Of a stretch of DNA of 64,000 bases, positions 11,950 to 21,797 are shown one piece after another. Numbering within the stretch: the first letter of the stretch is position 1; each line of letters opens with the position of its first letter. The notes beneath the pieces were generated by a model, which had not been told where the DNA came from, searched no databases, and saw only the letters and a program-made list of their open reading frames with translations. Origin of the DNA: Prosthecomicrobium sp. N25. GTDB lineage: Bacteria > Pseudomonadota > Alphaproteobacteria > Rhizobiales > Ancalomicrobiaceae. The translations under genes were made by a program, and so were the position numbers. The stretch is from NCBI RefSeq assembly GCF_037203705.1, contig NZ_JBBCAT010000001.1, positions 1,399,418 through 1,463,417 of the forward strand, in the 5' to 3' direction.

Positions 11950-13110
11950 ATGATTACGAAGCTCGCGATTTCTGGCTACCGATCACTTCGGAACATCACG
12001 TTAGGCCTTGGGCCGGTCAACGTCGTCACGGGACCGAACGGTTCCGGTAAGTCGAGTCTCTATCGCGCGCTCCGGCTCTTGGCAGATGTTGCACAGGGGC
12101 GGATCATCCAGGCGCTTGCCGCGGAGGGTGGTTTGGACTCGACCCTTTGGGCCGGTCCCGAGACCCTCTCCCGCGCCATGAAACGTGGCGAGCACCCCGT
12201 CCAAGGAACGGTTAGGAAGGGGCCGATTTCGCTGAAGCTCGGGTTCGCAGGCGAGGACTATGGCTATGCCATCGACCTCGGGCTGCCGATCCCTCAACAT
12301 CGGCCGTCCGCCTTCAAAAGCGATCCGGCCATAAAGACGGAAACCATTTGGACCGCCGAAACACTTGGAAGATCGAACGCTTTCGCGATCCGGCAAGGTC
12401 CGGGTGTACGCATTCGCGACAGCAGCGGGTCATAGCGGCAGGCGTACGATAGTCTGGCTCCATTCGACAGCATGATGACGCACTGCAGTGATCCGAGAGA
12501 TGGCCTCGAACTGCTGCTGTTGCGCGAACGTCTGCGCGGCTGGCGCTTCTACGATCACTTCAGGACGGACGTTGAAGCGCCCGCGCGGCGCCCGCAGGTA
12601 GGCACTTACACTCCTGTCCTTGCCAGCGATGGAGCCGATCTGGCGGCGGCAATTCAGACGATCAGGGAGATTGGGGACAGCGATGCCCTCGATGAAGCCG
12701 TCGCTGACGCCTTCGACGGCGCCCGTGTGGATGTCAGCGGTGACCGGGGCTATTTCGAAATCGAAGTGCGGCAGCATGGTCTGCTGCGACCGTTGAAGGC
12801 CGCTGAGTTGTCGGATGGAACACTGCGTTATTTGCTCCTGACTTCTGCTTTGCTATCGCCGCGCCCGCCGACATTGATGATTTTGAACGAGCCCGAGACT
12901 AGTCTCCATGCGGATCTGCTTGCCCCACTTGCTCGCCTCATCGCCGCAGTCGCGTCGACATCGCAGATTTTCGTGGTTACCCACTCGAAGCCGCTGGCCG
13001 AGGCATTGTTGGCCCAGTCGGACTGTCGCTCGTTCGAACTCGGCAAGGAACTCGGCGAGACCGTGGTCGCCGATAACGATCGGCCAGCCTGGACTTGGCC
13101 CTCCCGCTGA
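11950..13110 (+). pseudogene. predicted AAA ATPase (COG4637-like) with in-frame TAG
   Basis: The same frame runs from ATG 11950 to TGA 13110 (about 386 codons) but is interrupted by TAG at 12433-12435. The first part has Walker A GPNGSGKSS near residue 29 and the family-typical WAGPETLSRAMKRGEHP. The second has LAPFDSMMTH, ELSDGTLRYLL and the Walker B region LMILNEPETSLHADLL. Both halves form one RecF/SMC-like predicted ATPase of normal length. The TAG sits where homologues, as I recall them, have Trp, so a single TGG-to-TAG change explains it. The region is visibly AT-richer than its neighbours, suggesting transfer. If read through, the protein could still be made. Confidence 0.8.
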
Positions 13111-13958: not shown

Positions 13959-14444
13959 TCCCGTCCAGCATGCGGGGAAGGGGTGGACTCGCCCGCATGC
14001 CCGGAATGCATAGCGCAGAACGGGCCGCCGCGCCCGTTCGGAAGGCGGCAGCCGCGCGGGAGGACGTCGGGTCTTCCCGCGGGCGGCCACCTTCCGGATG
14101 TAGCTCCCGCAACGGGAGAAGCTCCGATCGAAAAGGCCTGCTCAAATGACGTCGCGACCGCCGCGGCCCAATGGCCGGGCATCGACCCGTCCGGCTGCCC
14201 CCCAGGGACTGGAGCAAGGGCCGGCTGCCGTGGCTCCGCAGTGCGGGCGGACCAGGGCTCGACCGGCGAGCAGGCCGGAAATCCCAAAACCGGCGGCTCG
14301 CCGACCGGTTGGTTCCGGGCGACGTATCGCAGTCTGCGCATTCACCGTGAGTTCAGCGTGAGGCACGGCAGAATTGCGGCGAAGCGCGTGCGGTTGTATG
14401 CATGCAGAGCTGCACCGGAGCCGCACGGACGACCTGCCGCCCTC
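13959..14444. other. intergenic region between hutC and the YcaO gene
   Basis: This 486-base gap lies between the divergent hutC and ycaO-type genes. No supported gene was found. An 8-base palindrome TGCATGCA is at 14399-14406. A 16-codon frame (14398-14448) overlaps the ycaO ATG as ATGA, but it lacks a good ribosome site and is not called. The promoters of both genes presumably lie here. Confidence 0.5.
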
Positions 14445-15632
14445 ATGATCGAACCCATCCCCCTGGCCGCCGTTCCCGGAATGCTGGATGGTGCCGCCGT
14501 TCGGCTGGCCGCCGTCGCGGGCCACCTGGAGGACCTGTTCCGGATCGTGCCGCCGGCCGCGCCGCAAGCGTGGTTCTTCGGGGCACGGCTCCGGCCCGGG
14601 CCCGGGGTCCCCGCATTCGGCGTCGCAGGGCTCGGTACGAGCCCGGCCGAGGCGCTCGCCAAGTGCCTCGGCGAGGCCGTGGAGGTCGCATCCCTGTTCG
14701 AGCGGGGCGACGAGGCGCTCTCGGACGAGTTGGCCTCCCGTCTTCCGGACGCGGGGCTGGGAGCCGACGTCGCGCCGCCCGCGCGCCTCTGGGCGGCGGT
14801 GCGGCGTGAGCCCGACGGTGCGCCGTTCCGGATTCCGCTCGCGCTTCGGGTGCGCACATGTCCGCCGGACCGGCACGGCGTGCCGAGCGCGCCCCTCGGG
14901 CTCGGCACCGGAGCCGGCCCGACCGCCGGGGACGCACTCCGCCACGGCCTCCTGGAACTGATCGAGCGGGACGCCGTCGCCCTCTGGTGGCGGGCGGGGC
15001 GGCCCGCCCGCCGCCTGGCCGCCGATGCCGTCGAGGCCACGGCCGCCTTCGCCGAACTGGCGGCCCTGCGCGGCACGATGCCGCACCGGCCCGTCACCGT
15101 CGTCGACCTTGCCACCGACCTGCCCGTGACGGCGCTGGCCGTCTTCTCGACGGGGCCGGACGGCCGCGGCTTCGCGTTCGGCGCGGCGGCGCGGCCGACC
15201 TTCGCGGAGGCGCTGCGGGCGTCCCTCCTGGAACTCCTGCAGATGGAACTCGCCCAGGATCTCGCCGCCTGGAAGGCCGATACCCTCGGTGACGGCACCC
15301 TGACGGATCTCGATCGCCGCCACCTCGCCCGGCGACAAGGCCCCCCGCCCGCCGAGCTTCCCCAGGTCGCCGCCATGCCGCGCGCCGACATCGGCCCGGA
15401 CGAAGATCTGGCCGGCAAGACGCTCCCGGCATCGGCAACTGAAATTTTAGAAGGTTGTGCAACCATGGGTCACACAATCTACTCGGCCGACTGTACCCGG
15501 GCGGACCTGCAGCTGCCTGTAATTCGAGTGTATGGACCAGAAATGCAACCGGAGCCTTGTCGTATCGTCAAATTTCGCATGGTTTCCTGGAGAGCAAGAA
15601 CCGGGTTCACCTGGGATAGCCCCCTTTTCTAG
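14445..15632 (+). CDS. YcaO-domain protein (ATP-dependent peptide backbone-modifying family)
   Basis: A 395-residue YcaO homologue. The family uses ATP to phosphorylate a peptide amide oxygen, giving azolines, amidines or thioamides in natural products, or thioamidated/other targets in housekeeping roles. The ATP/metal motifs are visible: CLGEAVEVASLF (Glu77, Glu80) and LGTGAG...LLELIERDAVALWW (Glu171, Glu174, Arg175). The C terminus LPVIRVYGPEMQPEP fits the family, but the protein ends TWDSPLF rather than in a proline-rich tail. No partner (TfuA, ThiF/E1-like, dehydrogenase) or precursor peptide was found nearby. The last 200 bases are clearly AT-richer. An in-frame GTG at 14388 is an alternative start. 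Confidence 0.85.
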   Translation: MIEPIPLAAVPGMLDGAAVRLAAVAGHLEDLFRIVPPAAPQAWFFGARLRPGPGVPAFGVAGLGTSPAEALAKCLGEAVEVASLFERGDEALSDELASRLPDAGLGADVAPPARLWAAVRREPDGAPFRIPLALRVRTCPPDRHGVPSAPLGLGTGAGPTAGDALRHGLLELIERDAVALWWRAGRPARRLAADAVEATAAFAELAALRGTMPHRPVTVVDLATDLPVTALAVFSTGPDGRGFAFGAAARPTFAEALRASLLELLQMELAQDLAAWKADTLGDGTLTDLDRRHLARRQGPPPAELPQVAAMPRADIGPDEDLAGKTLPASATEILEGCATMGHTIYSADCTRADLQLPVIRVYGPEMQPEPCRIVKFRMVSWRARTGFTWDSPLF

Positions 15633-15640
15633 TCTAGACT
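15631..15640. promoter_or_regulatory. 10-base palindrome between ycaO-type and SARP genes
   Basis: AGTCTAGACT is a perfect palindrome overlapping the YcaO stop codon and lying about 112 bases before the ATG of the SARP-like gene. It may be a regulator site; it is too short to terminate and no T-tract follows. Confidence 0.3.
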
Positions 15641-15751
15641 GAAACCGGCGGCCGCCTGGCTGCATGCCGTCACGGACCTTGGCCTTTGCAGACGATCGAC
15701 GAACGCCTGGAGACGAGGCCTGGTAGCCCGGCCGCCCCTGGACAGGGCGGC

Positions 15752-17758
15752 ATGCTGTTCTTCGACCTCGTCGGCGGCTGCCAGATCCACTTCGACGGCC
15801 GCCCCGTCGAGTTGCGCGGGCGCAAGGGGCGCGCGCTGCTCGCCTATCTGGCCCTGCACCCCGGGCAGCCGCAGCCCCGGGAGCGGATCGTCGGCCTGCT
15901 CTGGAGCGAGACCGAGGAGGAGAAGGCGCGGGCATCGCTGCGCCAGACCCTGAAGGAGGTCCGCCAGGCCTTCCTGGCCGTCGGCTACGACGGCTTCGCG
16001 GCCGAGCGCTTCGACGTGGCCCTCGGGACGGGCGGCGTGCGGCACGACCTGGGTGCCGTGGTCGAGGCGCTGGACGAGGGCAGGGTGCCGGCCGCACTGC
16101 TCGAACGCCGCCGCCTGGGCGAGGCCGTCCTGGCCGGCTACGAGGAGATCGATCCCGCCTTCCGGGTCTGGCTCCTCGCCTACAGGCAGCAGATCTCCGA
16201 CCGGCTCACGCGGCTGCTCGAGGCGGGCATGACCGTCGCCGAGCGGCTCGACGACCGCGACCGGCTCAAGCTGCGCGCCGAGGCCCTCATCAACCTCGAC
16301 CCGACCCATGAGGTGGCCTGCCGCCATCTGATGCGCCTCAAGGCCCAGGCCGGCGACGTTGCCGGTGCCCACAAGCACTACAAGACCCTCTGGGATCTGC
16401 TCGACGAGGACTACGGCACCGAGCCGGCCGACGAGACCCAGGCCCTCATGGTCGCCATCAAGATGGGGCAGGTCGGCGAGGCTCCCGCCCCCGCGGCCCG
16501 CCTGCCCGCCGCGCCGGAACCGCCCGAGGCGCTGCCGCGCCCGGTGATCGTGGTAGCCCAGCTCCGCGCCATCGAAGTCTCGGCGCTCAACGCCGACAAG
16601 CTCCTCTGCTTCCGGCACGAACTGGTCGCGAGCCTCGTCCGCTTCCGCGAATGGCGGGTGGGCGACCAGATCCCGGCCGGCAAGCCGCCCGCCACGGAGG
16701 GCAACCACTACCTGGTCGAGATGACAGCCTATGAGGCTGGCGACGAGACCAAGCTCGTCATGACACTCCAGGACCTCAGCGCCTCGGCGTATATCTGGAG
16801 CGAGCAGTACACCCTCTCGCCGTCCAACTGGTTCGCCGTCCAGCGCAACATCGTGCGCGCCATCGGCATGGCCCTGCGGGTGCATCTCTCGACGGAGCGC
16901 CTGAACCGCCTCGCCGGCCGCGCGCCCGTCTCCATGGCGCTGCACGACCGCTGGCTGCAGGGCCAGGTCTCCATCATCGGATTCCGCTCGGAGGAATGGC
17001 GGCAGGCGGAGGCCATCTTCCGCGAGATGACCGGGCTCGACGAGAATTTCTCGCCGGCCTTCTCGAGCCTCGCCCAGCTGCACAACGGCCGCCATCTCGC
17101 CTTCCCGGGGCTGACGCGCGACCCCGTCACCGAGGCCGAATCGCTTCGGGTCGCCCGCAGGGCCGTGCAGATCGACCCGATCGACTCGCGCGCCCACCTC
17201 TGCCTCGCCTGGTCGCAGGCGCTCGCGGGCCAGTACGCCCTGTCGGCGGAAAGCTTCCGCCTCGCCCATTCCCTGAACGATTCGGATCCCTGGACCTTGA
17301 TCTCCGCCGCCCACGGCCTCGCCTTCATGGGCGAGATGGCCGAGGCCGCCCGGCTCGAGGCCCAGATGGTGGCCCTCGTCACGACCCCGACGCGCAGCCA
17401 GTGGGGCTACCTGGTCGGCACCCGCTTCCTTTGCGGCGACTACGAGGGATCGATTTCCGCAGGGATATCGGCGGTCGACGTCATCTCCAACCTCCCGGGC
17501 TGGATGGCCGCCGCCTACCACCATCTCGGCCGCCGACGCGAGGCCGAGGCCGAGATGACGCGCTTCCTCGACCTCGTGCGCGCGCACTGGTCCGGCGCCG
17601 ATCCGCCGACGGACCTGGCCATCACCCGCTGGTTCCTGCACAATTTCCCGATCCGCCGCCGCGCGGACTGGGAACGGCTGCGCGACGGGGTCCACGGCGC
17701 GGGTGCCCCTCACGTGCCCTGGGCCGACCGCAGCCCCTCGCAGGTGGCCAGCGAGTGA
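15752..17758 (+). CDS. SARP/BTAD-type transcriptional regulator with TPR region
   Basis: About 668 residues from ATG 15752; a TTG at 15686 would add 22. The N terminus is an OmpR-like winged helix ([55 protein letters not shown]). A bacterial transcriptional activator domain follows ([26 protein letters not shown]), then a proline/alanine-rich linker and a C-terminal helical part with TPR-like pairs ([30 protein letters not shown]). SARP proteins activate secondary-metabolite operons in actinomycetes; proteobacterial forms are less studied. It lies directly downstream of the YcaO gene on the same strand, making it a candidate regulator of that gene. No AAA domain is present. Its stop overlaps the next gene. 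Confidence 0.85.
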
Positions 17759-18090
17759 CCCTCCCGCCCGTGACGGCGCTTCTCTATGCCGCCGCAGCGG
17801 CCGCCGAGATCGCGGGGTGCTTCGCGGTCTGGTCGTGGTGGCGTCTCGGCCGGTCGGCCCTGTGGCTCGTCCCCGGCCTCGCGGCCCTGGCGCTCTTCGC
17901 CTGGCTGCTCGCCCTGGTGCCGGTCAGCCACGCCGGACGCGCCTTCGCGGCCTATGGCGGGGTCTATATCGCCGCCTCGCTGGTCTGGATGCGGCTCGTC
18001 GAGAACAAGGCGCCGGACGCGTTCGACCTCGGCGGCGCCGCGCTCTGCCTGCTGGGCGCCTTGGTGATCCTCATGGGCCCGCGCGGCTGA
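17755..18090 (+). CDS. YnfA/UPF0060 family small membrane protein
   Basis: A 111-residue protein with four hydrophobic segments, starting at GTG 17755, which overlaps the SARP stop (GTGA). The family features are clear: the N-terminal [42 protein letters not shown], and a final [15 protein letters not shown]. YnfA proteins resemble small multidrug resistance transporters and sit in the inner membrane; their substrate is generally unproven. The overlap suggests co-translation with the regulator, though the functional link may be incidental. Confidence 0.9.
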
Positions 18091-18174
18091 GCGGCCGCGG
18101 GGGCCTGATCGCCCCGCCGGACGTGCCGGGCACCTCCGGGGAGCGCGCGGCTCCCCGAAGCGAACCGCGGTCGG

Positions 18175-18621
18175 TCAGACGCACTGCGCGATGGTGTAGT
18201 CGCCGATCCGTTCCGCGTGGAGCCGCATGGCCTCGCCCGGTCCCTGCTTCGGCTCCTCCGGCGCGCCGTCGAAGAAGTCCGGCGAATAGAAGCCCGGGAG
18301 CTTGTAGTAGCCGCCCTCCTCGAGCCACTTCTCGGACTCCTTCAGCATGCGCGCCATGGGCAGCCGCACCACGAGCGTCGACTCGGTCGACTGGACGAAG
18401 CGGATCTTCTTCATCTTGCCCTGGAACGAGGCCAGCCACGCGTCGCAGTTGGCCTTCGTGGTCGCCCCGGCCTTCACCAGCATGGCGAGGAACTCCTCGA
18501 GCGTCTTCGGCTTCGGCAGGTAGACGCCGCCGTTCTGGACGCGGTCCTGCTTCAGGGCCCAGGTCTTGGTTAGCTTGCCGAGCTGTTCGTAGTTGGTGAT
18601 CTCGAGTCTCTTCAAAGCCAT
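18175..18621 (-). CDS. uncharacterised protein beside the haem peroxidase
   Basis: A 148-residue soluble protein beginning MALKRLEITNYEQLGKLTKTW. It has no signal peptide or membrane segment and ends HAERIGDYTIAQCV. I do not recognise a family. It lies 65 bases downstream of the peroxidase gene on the same strand and could be its partner or an accessory. Codon use is like its neighbours, which supports a real gene. Confidence 0.75.
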   Translation of the reverse strand: MALKRLEITNYEQLGKLTKTWALKQDRVQNGGVYLPKPKTLEEFLAMLVKAGATTKANCDAWLASFQGKMKKIRFVQSTESTLVVRLPMARMLKESEKWLEEGGYYKLPGFYSPDFFDGAPEEPKQGPGEAMRLHAERIGDYTIAQCV

Positions 18622-18686
18622 GGTCGAACTCCAGCCCTTGCGCGGCGATCAAGAGGCCCCGCCGCTTGGCCATTTCGCGAGGACGG

Positions 18687-20546
18687 TCAGAGGAAGGAGG
18701 GTCCCGGGATCCCGCCCTTCACGAGGCGGGGCAGAGCCTGCAACAACTTGGGGACGCTGTCGATCTCATTTGCACCCGTGCCGGTGAGCTCCGGCAGGCA
18801 CCCCGCCGCCCGGGCCCCGAGCCGCGCCACCAGCGCCGCCCGGATCGAGGTCGCGAGCGGCCCCCCCGCGGTCTCGCTCGGCGGAATCGTGGCGGCGAGG
18901 CCGCCGAAGATGGTCTCGGCGACGATCAGCGAGCCGAGGATGCCGAGGTGGCGGCCGTGGTCGCCGCCGCCCTCCGCGGCCCCGGCCATCCCGGCCTCGA
19001 AGCGCAGGAAGAAGGGCAGGGGCGGATCGTCCGCGAGCGCGCTGGCGATCGCGGCCGGCACCGGCCGCAGCGAATCGGCCAGGAAGGCGCCCACCAGGCC
19101 GGACCGGTAGGCCTTGTCGGCCAGCATCCGGTGGCCCGACACCCAGTCCGGCGCCAGGGCGGAGAGCCGGGCGACGAGCGGTTCGAGCCGCCATAGACGG
19201 GCGAGCCCGGCGCTGATCAGGTCCCGGTAGTCGAGCCCGACCGCCCCGGTGCCGTCCGTCGCCGGGAACAGGGAGGCGTCGAAGAGCGGGCCCGTGGAGG
19301 TCGGCCCGATGCGCCGCGCGAGGTCGGGCCGCCGCCTCGGGTCGACCTCGAAGAATCGCGACCAGGTCGCCAGCCAGTGAGCGTTGGGCGGGATCCGCAC
19401 GCCGCCGGCCTCCGAGCTCTGGCTGAGGATGGCGGCGAGCGAGACGCTCTGCCCGGTCCGTGCGGCCGCGTCGCTGAACCCGTATTCGTCGCGCACCAGG
19501 CTGTGTCCGGTCCGGAACGCCGCATAGGCGAACTCGAAAACCGGCGGCGCCTCGGGCCGGCAGGAGAGCGGATCGAGAAAGGTCGGCTTGTCGCGGTCGT
19601 AGGCGGCGAGGACCGCCGGATGCAGCAGCCGCCCCATGGCGTCCCGGCGCAGGATGCGACGGTACACGAGCGTCACCACCTCGCGCGCCGCATGGTATTG
19701 GTCGAGCCGCATCTCGTCGTCCGTGGCGGCGTATTCCGTGCCGAGCCCGAGGCCGTCGAGCCGGTCCACGACCGCGTTGTGGAGGAGCGAGAAGGCGACG
19801 ACGAGCTGCGAAAGCGTCGCGTTGTCGTCGTTGCGCGCGTCCGCGATCAGGACCTCGGTCGGACGGTTGATCTCGATCGGACCCGGGGCGGCCGGCGGCG
19901 CCTCGAACAGGCGCTGGCGCGGAATGTCGCGCGCCGGGGTGGAGCCGTCGTCGAGCAGAGCCGGTCCGATCCGCAGGTAGCGGCGCGGCCGGCCCAGCCG
20001 CTCGAACCGGTAGGCGCGGCTCCCCTGCACCGGGCCGTCGCCGTAGAGCGTCTCCAGCACCAGCGGCTGCCGGCGCAGGTTGCCCTGCGAGACCCCGCCG
20101 TCCCCGGCCTCCGAGAGCGGGACCGCGGACTGGACGAGATCGTGGGCGACGAACTGCAGGAGATAGGTGTAGCCGGCCGGGAAGCCGGGATTGTCATGCG
20201 GGTGCAGGCCGGGCGCGAGCGGCGTCGTGAAGCCGGGATCGGCCAGGAGCCGGTCCGAGAGGGCCTGCATGGCCCGCCGGAAGCGGTCCTCGGTCGGCCG
20301 CGACGCCTGCGGGGGCTGGCCGTCGAAAAGGGTCTTCTCGTCCGACCCCGGCTCCCCGAGGAAATGGCGGAACCCCGGGACCGACCCGGCCGCATGCGGG
20401 CAGACCGGCTGGACGCCTGCGCCCTTGCGCGAGCCGAATTGGGCGCCCGATCCGGGAATGCCGAGCCCGAGCCCGTTGGCGCCGGTGCCGACCGCGCTTC
20501 CGGCCGGCGTCGCCGACCTGCCGCGGCCGATCCTGTGTCCTCCCAA
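18687..20546 (-). CDS. animal-type haem peroxidase family protein
   Basis: A 619-residue bacterial member of the animal haem peroxidase (cyclooxygenase/myeloperoxidase) superfamily. The distal site QFVAHD is at residues 131-136 (Gln131, His135). The catalytic arginine region ADARNDDNATLSQLVVAFSLLHN is at about 235-257, and the proximal haem ligand lies in FRTGHSLVRDEY (His348). The N-terminal 80 residues are Gly/Ala-rich without an obvious signal peptide. The start is a TTG with GGGAGGAG just upstream. Such enzymes oxidise halides, lipids or phenolics with peroxide; the substrate here is unknown. The small gene at 18175-18621 follows it. Confidence 0.85.
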   Translation of the reverse strand: MGGHRIGRGRSATPAGSAVGTGANGLGLGIPGSGAQFGSRKGAGVQPVCPHAAGSVPGFRHFLGEPGSDEKTLFDGQPPQASRPTEDRFRRAMQALSDRLLADPGFTTPLAPGLHPHDNPGFPAGYTYLLQFVAHDLVQSAVPLSEAGDGGVSQGNLRRQPLVLETLYGDGPVQGSRAYRFERLGRPRRYLRIGPALLDDGSTPARDIPRQRLFEAPPAAPGPIEINRPTEVLIADARNDDNATLSQLVVAFSLLHNAVVDRLDGLGLGTEYAATDDEMRLDQYHAAREVVTLVYRRILRRDAMGRLLHPAVLAAYDRDKPTFLDPLSCRPEAPPVFEFAYAAFRTGHSLVRDEYGFSDAAARTGQSVSLAAILSQSSEAGGVRIPPNAHWLATWSRFFEVDPRRRPDLARRIGPTSTGPLFDASLFPATDGTGAVGLDYRDLISAGLARLWRLEPLVARLSALAPDWVSGHRMLADKAYRSGLVGAFLADSLRPVPAAIASALADDPPLPFFLRFEAGMAGAAEGGGDHGRHLGILGSLIVAETIFGGLAATIPPSETAGGPLATSIRAALVARLGARAAGCLPELTGTGANEIDSVPKLLQALPRLVKGGIPGPSFL

Positions 20547-20699
20547 GCGCGCTCCTCCCGCTCCCGCCGGACCGGTCTCGCCACGGCCCGGGTCGCCGAA
20601 GGCGGCTCCGGCGCGGGTCGCACGTCGGAACCGAAGGGGGACGCGGTCTCGGCAGGAGCCGATCTTCGAACGGCTCGAGAGTGCCCGAGAAGCGTGAGA

Positions 20700-21797
20700 C
20701 TATCGTGAAGCCGAACCCGCCGGAATGCGCCGTCCTGGCGCCCCGAAGGCGACCTGCGCCTCGGTCTTCAGAAGGTCGGCATAGCGGGCGAGGCGGCTCT
20801 CCATCATGGCCACAAGCCGGCCATAGACCTCGGCCGTGGTGAGGGCGCGGAACTTTCGGCCCTGCCGCGCGTAGAAGAGCGAGCGGTTCGCCCGCGCGGC
20901 GGCGGGGAAGCGGGCGTTCGCGGCCATCGTCGGCTTGTCCGCCTTGAGCTTCAGGAGCCGCTCGGCGCCCGCCGACCCGAGCAGGTGCGAGAAGTAGAAT
21001 TCGCGCGTCTCCAGCGGACGGCCGAGTTCGGCCTCGAGCGCCGCACGGTCGCGCTTCAGGAGCGCGGCGGCGAGGAGACCGGACACATAGGGATCGCGCC
21101 GCAGCCCCAACACCCGCTCGCGCGCGGCCGGGTCCTTCACGGTCCAGCGGTCTCCGTCCCGTTCGACGAGCGCGGCCTCCGCGGCGAGCCCGTAGGCGGG
21201 CCCGTCCCGCCGGACGCTGTCCAGCCAGGTCTGGTCGATGAACTGGAAGAGGCCCTCCGCCGAGGAGGTCCGGGCCCGGATCGTCGGATCGAGGCTCGAC
21301 TCCTTGTCGGCCAGCGCGACCAGGTAGACGGCATCGACCCCCGTCTCCGCCGCGACCCGCTGCAGGATGCGCGTGACCGCCTGCCGTCCCGGGTTCGGCT
21401 GGAAGCGCGTCGGAAGCGTGATCAGGTCCGCCGTCTCCTCGCCCTCCTCGGCCCGGCATGTCCGCTCCGGTTCCGCGGGGGGAACGGCTGCGCCGGAGCT
21501 TTCGGCCCCCGCAGCCTCCGGCGCCGGCAGCACGCTGCCCGGGATCATTGCTTCGGGCGGCAGGAAGAGCGGATCGACGCCGCCCAACCCTCCGGCCGGC
21601 TCCTCCCGGAGCGAAATCTGTTCGAACCTGACGACGGGAACCTCGTCGGTCTGTCCGTTCGCAGCGGGCGCCGTGGCGATCATCGAGCCGAACAGGACCG
21701 CCGCGGCGACCGGTGAAGCGCTCCGCGGAGCGCCGAAGACGAGTCGCGAAAAGCCATGAAGAACCGTTTCGCCCTTGGCGAGAATCGTGAGCGCCAT
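20700..21797 (-). CDS. lytic transglycosylase-like protein (SLT domain)
   Basis: A 365-residue exported protein with a hydrophobic segment near residues 27-47 followed by ATAPAANGQ, which looks like a signal peptide after an extended N region. The lysozyme-like domain has the catalytic glutamate in LADKESSLDP (Glu166), then the SAEGLFQFIDQTWL motif typical of the soluble lytic transglycosylase fold. The family cleaves peptidoglycan between MurNAc and GlcNAc with 1,6-anhydro product formation. It stands alone on the minus strand, so it may be general wall turnover or part of an assembly process not encoded here. Confidence 0.82.
   Translation of the reverse strand: MALTILAKGETVLHGFSRLVFGAPRSASPVAAAVLFGSMIATAPAANGQTDEVPVVRFEQISLREEPAGGLGGVDPLFLPPEAMIPGSVLPAPEAAGAESSGAAVPPAEPERTCRAEEGEETADLITLPTRFQPNPGRQAVTRILQRVAAETGVDAVYLVALADKESSLDPTIRARTSSAEGLFQFIDQTWLDSVRRDGPAYGLAAEAALVERDGDRWTVKDPAARERVLGLRRDPYVSGLLAAALLKRDRAALEAELGRPLETREFYFSHLLGSAGAERLLKLKADKPTMAANARFPAAARANRSLFYARQGRKFRALTTAEVYGRLVAMMESRLARYADLLKTEAQVAFGAPGRRIPAGSASR

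Follow-up and report, generated by a model that had tools for sequence, protein, structure and literature searches.

The stretch of DNA considered here (the window) comprises 64,000 nt of the genome of Prosthecomicrobium sp. N25 (contig NZ_JBBCAT010000001.1, positions 1,399,418 to 1,463,417). It contains a gene for a YcaO protein that is one of four genes arranged as two converging pairs. On the plus strand, the gene for the YcaO, a standalone protein of 395 aa (14445–15632), is followed directly by that for a SARP/BTAD transcriptional regulator (15752–17758; the ATG at 15752 is the likelier start, a TTG at 15686 being possible). On the minus strand, and converging on the SARP gene, are the genes for a small protein of 148 aa (18175–18621), a candidate substrate or precursor whose family was found in 33 loci, and for an animal-type haem peroxidase (18687–20546; the TTG start at 20546 is uncertain, and the next in-frame ATG is at 20270). 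The peroxidase gene is situated upstream of the small-protein gene with a gap of 65 bp, and a GGAG sequence lies 7 nt 5′ of the small-protein ATG. Upstream of the YcaO–SARP genes is a putative SARP-type operator, CGTGAGTTCAGCGTGA (14346–14361, plus strand), which contains two copies at an 11-bp period and fits CGTGA-N6-CGTGA exactly; a second exact match, CGTGAGACTATCGTGA (20693–20708, plus strand), is found upstream of the peroxidase–small protein genes. A consensus scan of positions 14100–20900 yielded no intrinsic terminator; the single sigma-70-like site that it gave falls on the minus strand within the YcaO gene.

The first-pass annotation had reported that neither the usual partners of a YcaO enzyme nor a clear precursor peptide could be seen. 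As to the partners, this is correct: TfuA (PF07812), the SagB dehydrogenase (TIGR03605) and the E1-like protein (TIGR03882, a model that gave sub-threshold matches in 5 of 14 control genomes) had no matches in this organism's genome. The precursor is another matter, since the small protein is a conserved candidate, encoded on the minus strand just beyond the two genes that had been considered.

The YcaO, SARP and peroxidase proteins

The YcaO protein matched PF02624 at 115.6 bits (cut-off 25.7) and was the sole match to that model in the 5.95-Mb genome. It had been described as complete, with intact Glu77, Glu80, Glu171, Glu174 and Arg175, and these ATP/Mg residues proved invariant in an alignment of 23 sequences. 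The AlphaFold2 model (mean pLDDT 86.4) had the LynD heterocyclase as its best match in the PDB; archaeal YcaOs, MusD, TruD, E. coli YcaO and McbD were also matched. A sequence profile of the clade defined below gave a similar picture, with scores of 152.2 bits for LynD, 145.7 for TruD, 125.1 for MusD and 94.7 for MJ1094, followed at lower levels by the M. kandleri YcaO (65.9), E. coli YcaO (30.2) and McbD (22.3). The score against TIGR03604, which represents SagD-type TOMM/LAP cyclodehydratases, was 86.4 bits and thus under the cut-off of 219.25. No further Pfam or NCBIfam domain was detected in the 395 aa, and a search of the 'plasmids' set gave no match to the YcaO at E values up to 1e-5. 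The G+C content of the 3′ end of the gene (15400–15700) is 0.56, compared with 0.67–0.79 in the flanking stretches; the C terminus encoded there is still homologous to that of its relatives.

The assignment of the adjacent gene to the SARP/BTAD regulators was confirmed by a match to the BTAD model PF03704 (35.9 bits, cut-off 22.1). Trans_reg_C, the OmpR-type winged helix, scored 23.4, under its cut-off of 26.2. The 17 aligned SARP homologues are 34–58% identical.

The peroxidase matched PF03098 (31.9 bits, cut-off 25). Residues Q131, H135, D136, R238, R345 and H348 do not vary among the 15 sequences compared. Lactoperoxidase can be aligned around R238 and H348, and a role for H135 is presumed from its Q-x3-HD motif. 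The residue preceding H135 is Ala or Gly in all 15 peroxidases; the equivalent residue in lactoperoxidase is the Asp that links the haem. No signal peptide was obvious by eye, the start codon being uncertain. A second peroxidase homologue adjoins the gene set in one locus (L164:12419–13732, plus strand).

Two other genes in the vicinity may be mentioned. A gene for a YnfA/UPF0060 membrane protein (17755–18090, plus strand) overlaps the SARP stop codon; among the compared loci, the sole other matches are YnfA genes 4–6 kb upstream of YcaO in L016 and L021. Further upstream is a gene for an AAA/SMC-like ATPase (11950–13110, plus strand), related to the HEC-01A models of PADLOC, which is split into two frames (11950–12435 and 12472–13110) and looks broken.

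Conservation of the gene set, its upstream repeats and its YcaO clade

It was of interest to determine whether the YcaO–SARP pair is conserved, and which short reading frames accompany it. A scan of genome contigs for YcaO gave at least 590 pattern matches and at least 411 relatives, the best 80 of which were designated L014–L093. A SARP gene was present in 25 of the 27 first-listed loci (all but L035 and L036), and a member of the small-protein family lay beside YcaO–SARP in 23 of those 25; the contigs of L015 and L039 end inside the SARP gene. With a hidden Markov model, no small protein was found in the remaining 53 loci (L041–L093), two of which, L053 and L075, carry both a SARP and a peroxidase. 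A SARP profile match, mostly weak, was seen in 35 of those 53 YcaO loci, mostly actinobacterial. In the Mesorhizobium locus L035, which has neither this type of SARP nor the peroxidase, a 159-aa frame just upstream of YcaO (L035:7309–7788, plus strand) ends in FKRCR, with Cys next to last.

Together with the window and loci from genome surveys, the scan provided 33 small-protein loci. These are not independent, because they include near relatives (L024/L031, L026/L028, L162/L163 and L016/L029). A SARP covering at least 90% of the profile is present in all 33, as is a YcaO, which is whole and in one frame in 29; in L033 and L105 it is cut by contig ends, in L023 it is broken into two frames and in L161 only fragments remain. 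The peroxidase is intact in 25 of the 33. It is absent from L016, L021, L022, L023, L025, L029 and L033 (in L023 the contig extends 2.2 kb past the small protein), and a remnant is found in L031. It is apparent from these conserved neighbours, the small protein and the peroxidase beside related YcaOs, that the YcaO is not an orphan. Thus the earlier proposal of a minimal, undescribed modifying unit survives in part: an undescribed, peptide- or protein-modifying system under SARP control is still supported, but it is not minimal, as a candidate substrate and a peroxidase adjoin the original pair.

Two of the incomplete loci deserve comment. In L161 (10797–11130, minus strand), only fragments of YcaO accompany the SARP, small protein and peroxidase, all three of which are intact; the loss of YcaO may be tolerated, or there may be a fault in the genome sequence. 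The remnant in L031, a Stappia locus (12010–12186, minus strand), suggests a recent loss of the peroxidase, which is intact in the near relative L024.

The distribution of the gene set is patchy. When the small protein alone served as the query, matches were found in 4 of 385 genomes in a class sample and 6 of 398 in a phylum sample, its own genome being among them in both. In each of the eight other survey genomes (one of which, G054, is that of L026), SARP, peroxidase and YcaO genes were found beside the small protein, the YcaO being fragmentary in one and cut by a contig end in another. The YcaO itself had no match in the two congeners searched and matched in 10 of 61 genomes, its own included.

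SARPs are described, in the available part of one source (PMC10936776), as binding direct repeats spaced 11 or 22 bp. Near-identical heptamers recurring at an 11-bp period numbered 66 upstream of YcaO (20 regions) and 64 upstream of the peroxidase (15 regions), compared with 2–26 and 2–16, respectively, at other periods from 8 to 33 bp. Five regions preceding small proteins that lack a peroxidase gave 10 at 11 bp and 0–7 at other periods. The word common to these repeats is CGTGA-N6-CGTGA. In the 33 loci, 41 exact copies were present in 34.3 kb of upstream regions, as against 10 in 534.8 kb elsewhere, although these counts are not independent because the motif was read off the upstream regions of 22 of the same loci. 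In the upstream regions, seven other gap lengths gave 0 or 1 matches each and four control words gave 0. Exact sites precede the peroxidase or small protein in 23 of the 33 loci and YcaO in 12, all among those 23; the other 10 have no exact site before these genes. Before YcaO, a copy with one mismatch is found in each of the nine Stappiaceae loci. Among the 11 loci that were not used to derive the motif, nine (all but L031 and L106) have an exact site before the peroxidase, small protein or YcaO.

The window contains just two exact matches (14346 and 20693), and these bracket the four genes; two or more were obtained in 1 of 100 shuffles. Over the whole genome there are 11 exact matches and one to the reversed pattern, while the window shuffles (mean 0.21 per 64 kb) predict about 20. 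A three-copy repeat score was mostly not above that of shuffles, the signal residing in two copies. Taken together, the repeats suggest that the SARP would regulate its own gene through 11-bp-period sites, to which it is predicted to bind. Operator-like repeats, some with one mismatch, were also seen before genes for predicted lipoproteins of unknown family in L034, L037 and L040 (7.2–7.4 kb) and in L027 (13.7–13.8 kb); these genes are possible further members of the regulon.

A maximum-likelihood tree was built from 69 YcaOs, with L105, L023, L039 and L161 left out and a sample that did not extend to E. coli YcaO, McbD or the streptamidine clade. The 32 cassette rows, which include L094 and L095, make up one side of a branch with support of 99/96. 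Apart from them stand seven TfuA-linked, two archaeal, three cyanobactin-type, 13 actinobacterial, two bottromycin-type and 10 other rows; 12 of the 13 actinobacterial rows fall with the cyanobactin rows. The nearest row outside the clade is L097 (88/83), which carries the full four-gene set. Two rows from S. scabiei, which we take to be bottromycin YcaOs since they form an adjacent pair in that genome, are on branches of 2.9 and 4.1, do not group together and lie outside the cassette clade. Given this separate branch, placement of the YcaO with the TfuA-linked, archaeal or cyanobactin enzymes was rejected. The placement in a family tree called for by the first-pass annotation thus yielded a clade of its own, apart from those rows and the actinobacterial ones; the housekeeping E. 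coli YcaO, being outside the sample, was compared by profile, at 30.2 bits to LynD's 152.2.

The YcaOs of the Rhodobacteraceae loci L053 and L075 are outside the clade, and yet SARP, YcaO and peroxidase occur together there. Between SARP and YcaO, both loci have a small minus-strand frame ending in RYFMRHCR. A partnership of SARP, YcaO, peroxidase and small frame may therefore be wider than the clade.

The small protein and its C-terminal tail

The small protein of the window had no Pfam or NCBIfam match at E values up to 1. Among 23 aligned members of its family, each hit was confined to one member, the best (L097 to IniB_NTERM, 5e-5) being below the cut-off. The most conspicuous feature of the family is its C terminus. 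In the window this is RIGDYTIAQCV (codons 18178–18210, minus strand; Tyr codon 18196–18198, Cys codon 18181–18183; translation checked), and the family consensus is [I/V][G/A]DYT[I/M]xxCx-COOH. When the two Rhodobacteraceae frames were considered with the 33 family members, Tyr-x4-Cys was found in 35 of 35 sequences. Counted from the stop, its Tyr is at −7 and its Cys at −2 in 34 of them; in the remaining one, L106, the motif is shifted by one residue. Position −6 is T in 28 sequences, S in two, F in two and I, C or L in one each, the L being that of L106, whose shifted T follows Tyr.

The small protein is under purifying selection: nonsynonymous divergence (dN) was lower than synonymous (dS) in 7 of 7 pairs. 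Five close pairs had ratios of about 0.05–0.15, whereas L019/L020 had 0.20, and the window and L014 had 0.42. The predicted structure is mostly helical (mean pLDDT 79.8).

A weak sequence resemblance was detected to the leaders of nitrile-hydratase-like (NHLP) precursors of ribosomally synthesized and post-translationally modified peptides (RiPPs). When the middle part of the protein (29 sequences) was compared by hhalign with a profile of NHLP leaders, the score was 33.1 and the probability 73.1%; with 33 sequences, these values were 30.3 and 56.4%. In controls, 100 column shuffles per test did not exceed 16.7 and 16.9, and three unrelated profiles scored 10.9–19.5. The NHLP profile comprised ten alphaproteobacterial sequences, from four of the five genomes that exceed the TIGR03793 cut-off; in all, 69 of 190 alphaproteobacterial genomes matched that model at E≤0.001. 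The Rhodobacteraceae frame likewise resembled NHLPs (64.4%, score 31.4; shuffles ≤19.8). Since single sequences miss TIGR03793, the small protein is described as working like an NHLP-led precursor, and its classification as an NHLP is not supported.

A proposed pathway and its alternatives

The hypothesis favoured here, to which a probability of roughly 0.6 is assigned, is that the four genes constitute one SARP-autoregulated, RiPP-like cassette, in which YcaO modifies the tail of the small protein and the peroxidase may oxidise it. The SARP would bind the CGTGA-N6-CGTGA repeats before both converging pairs, turning on the YcaO–SARP and peroxidase–small protein genes together, each pair presumably being transcribed jointly. 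The small protein would be the substrate, its folded N-terminal part acting as a leader that presents the tail to YcaO, and the conserved [I/V][G/A]DYT[I/M]xxCx-COOH would be the site of modification. With ATP, YcaO would activate a backbone amide of the tail, most likely converting the penultimate Cys to a thiazoline; a reaction at the Thr/Ser beside Tyr, or the formation of an amidine or a thioamide, would be less likely. The peroxidase, where present, might then oxidise the tail, either from azoline to azole or at the conserved Tyr. The chemistry is modelled on known YcaO enzymes, as presented in the available portions of two papers (PMC12455567, PMC8442711). In favour of this hypothesis are the synteny, the fixed Tyr-x4-Cys, the weak similarity to NHLP leaders, the closeness of the YcaO profile to LynD and TruD, and the operators.

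Several observations weigh against this hypothesis. L094 has a YcaO of the clade but no SARP, small protein or peroxidase in 13 kb, and in L095 a clade YcaO is accompanied by a SARP, but neither a small protein nor a peroxidase was recognised. The peroxidase is missing from seven of the 33 loci and reduced to a remnant in one, while the tail is kept, so it is not essential. Homology between the Rhodobacteraceae small proteins and the main family was not significant (hhalign 3.1%, score 19.0), and they can therefore be regarded only as analogous. Purifying selection acts on the whole small protein, and its best-conserved part is the putative core, the reverse of the pattern in most RiPPs. No fold or sequence match to the small protein was found in the PDB; TIGR03793 was not matched by 23 members at E values up to 1, nor by nine proteins at E values up to 10; no conserved double-Gly cleavage site was seen by eye in a 29-row alignment; and Pfam scans of the four proteins revealed no protease, transporter or RRE domain. 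McbD, likewise an azoline enzyme, has the lowest score among the PDB matches (22.3 bits).

Some of these same features would be expected if the small protein were instead an adaptor or partner of YcaO, as are TfuA and the E1-like C proteins, with its tail docking on the enzyme and some other cellular protein being modified. This is the main rival. An adaptor would be selected over its whole length and be folded, as is predicted (mean pLDDT 79.8), and would be accompanied by no cleavage site, protease or transporter, none of which was recognised; the genome also encodes no other known partner. We nevertheless consider it unlikely, because the small-protein gene is paired with that of the peroxidase and not with that of YcaO, because of the protein's weak likeness to NHLP leaders, and because an invariant Cys at a set distance from the stop is the form expected of a modified C terminus. 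About equally unlikely is that only YcaO and the small protein cooperate, the peroxidase being a bystander with an antioxidant or defence role that is under the control of the same SARP. Its absence or decay in eight loci and the operator-like repeats before lipoprotein genes of unknown family in some loci would be in keeping with such a role, but in 25 of 33 loci the peroxidase gene is upstream of the small-protein gene on their common strand, and the distant Rhodobacteraceae loci L053 and L075 likewise have a peroxidase next to YcaO and SARP. Less probable still is thioamidation of the tail, as by the YcaO–TfuA and archaeal McrA enzymes, with the peroxidase handling sulfur or protecting the product. 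Archaeal YcaOs do act on a folded protein substrate, and MJ1094 matches the clade profile at 94.7 bits; LynD, however, scores higher (152.2 bits), TfuA is absent from the genome, and the 32 cassette rows are separated from the TfuA and archaeal rows with support of 99/96.

Comparison of the proposed cassette with known systems reveals partial likenesses. It shares with the NHLP/YcaO system MprE/MprC, as far as the available text of PMC12455567 describes it, a folded leader (here predicted) and a YcaO as modifier, and the small protein has weak, above-shuffle similarity to ten alphaproteobacterial NHLPs. According to the same text, MprC contains an RRE domain and is paired with MprD, a flavin oxidase; the cassette differs in that its YcaO is standalone, its candidate oxidase is a haem peroxidase, TIGR03793 is unmatched and the tail is fixed. 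As in the bottromycin and streptamidine systems (PMC8442711, in the portion available), a standalone YcaO without an E1-like or TfuA partner has its own clade and its own precursor family. In that portion, the survey of standalone YcaOs concerns Actinobacteria and six Firmicutes, its new precursor family is of 31–89 residues with other motifs, and the words SARP and peroxidase are absent. LynD and TruD are the nearest solved structures by sequence profile, LynD also by fold, but these proteins are of 775–781 aa with an N-terminal part that is absent from the cassette YcaO. Pyrroloquinoline quinone (PQQ) and mycofactocin arise from a small precursor with a highly conserved modified stretch. The cassette resembles them in its small precursor candidate and conserved, fixed tail, but the four-gene set has no radical SAM enzyme, and contains YcaO and a peroxidase instead. 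The BTAD domain and the direct repeats spaced 11 bp before target genes are as in actinobacterial SARPs such as AfsR (available parts of PMC10936776 and PMC10972967), whereas the cassette SARPs are not actinobacterial, are 668–690 aa in length with a long C-terminal part, and are associated with a CGTGA-based repeat.

No description of the cassette was found among the open-licence PMC matches listed on YcaO and its partners, and no open-licence PMC paper was found in which YcaO, haem peroxidase and SARP occur together. Among the open-licence PMC matches listed, none by its title concerned a pathway of YcaO and peroxidase. In the available main text of a survey of azole RiPPs (PMC4603692), Stappia, peroxidase and BTAD are nowhere mentioned, and a genome survey of Acetobacteraceae reports, in the part available, a YcaO cluster in one Roseomonas (PMC8776678). 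It is tempting, if still speculative, to suppose that the cassette represents a new RiPP class or a peptide-derived cofactor or signal, in which YcaO and peroxidase act on the fixed Tyr-x4-Cys end of a small, folded protein to give a single conserved product in many alphaproteobacterial families, under the control of a SARP that, in Gram-negatives, regulates itself through operators of its own.

What looked like an orphan YcaO can now be tested as part of a pathway that has a candidate substrate and a partner oxidase, a likely reaction site narrowed to about 11 residues, and a regulator whose putative DNA sites can be recognised. The haem peroxidase is a type of partner not encountered alongside YcaO in the open-licence PMC matches listed. 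The invariance of the putative core hints at a conserved function, such as that of a cofactor, a signal or metal handling, and not at an antibiotic. Both fields would be widened if a cassette of this kind were under SARP control outside the Actinobacteria.

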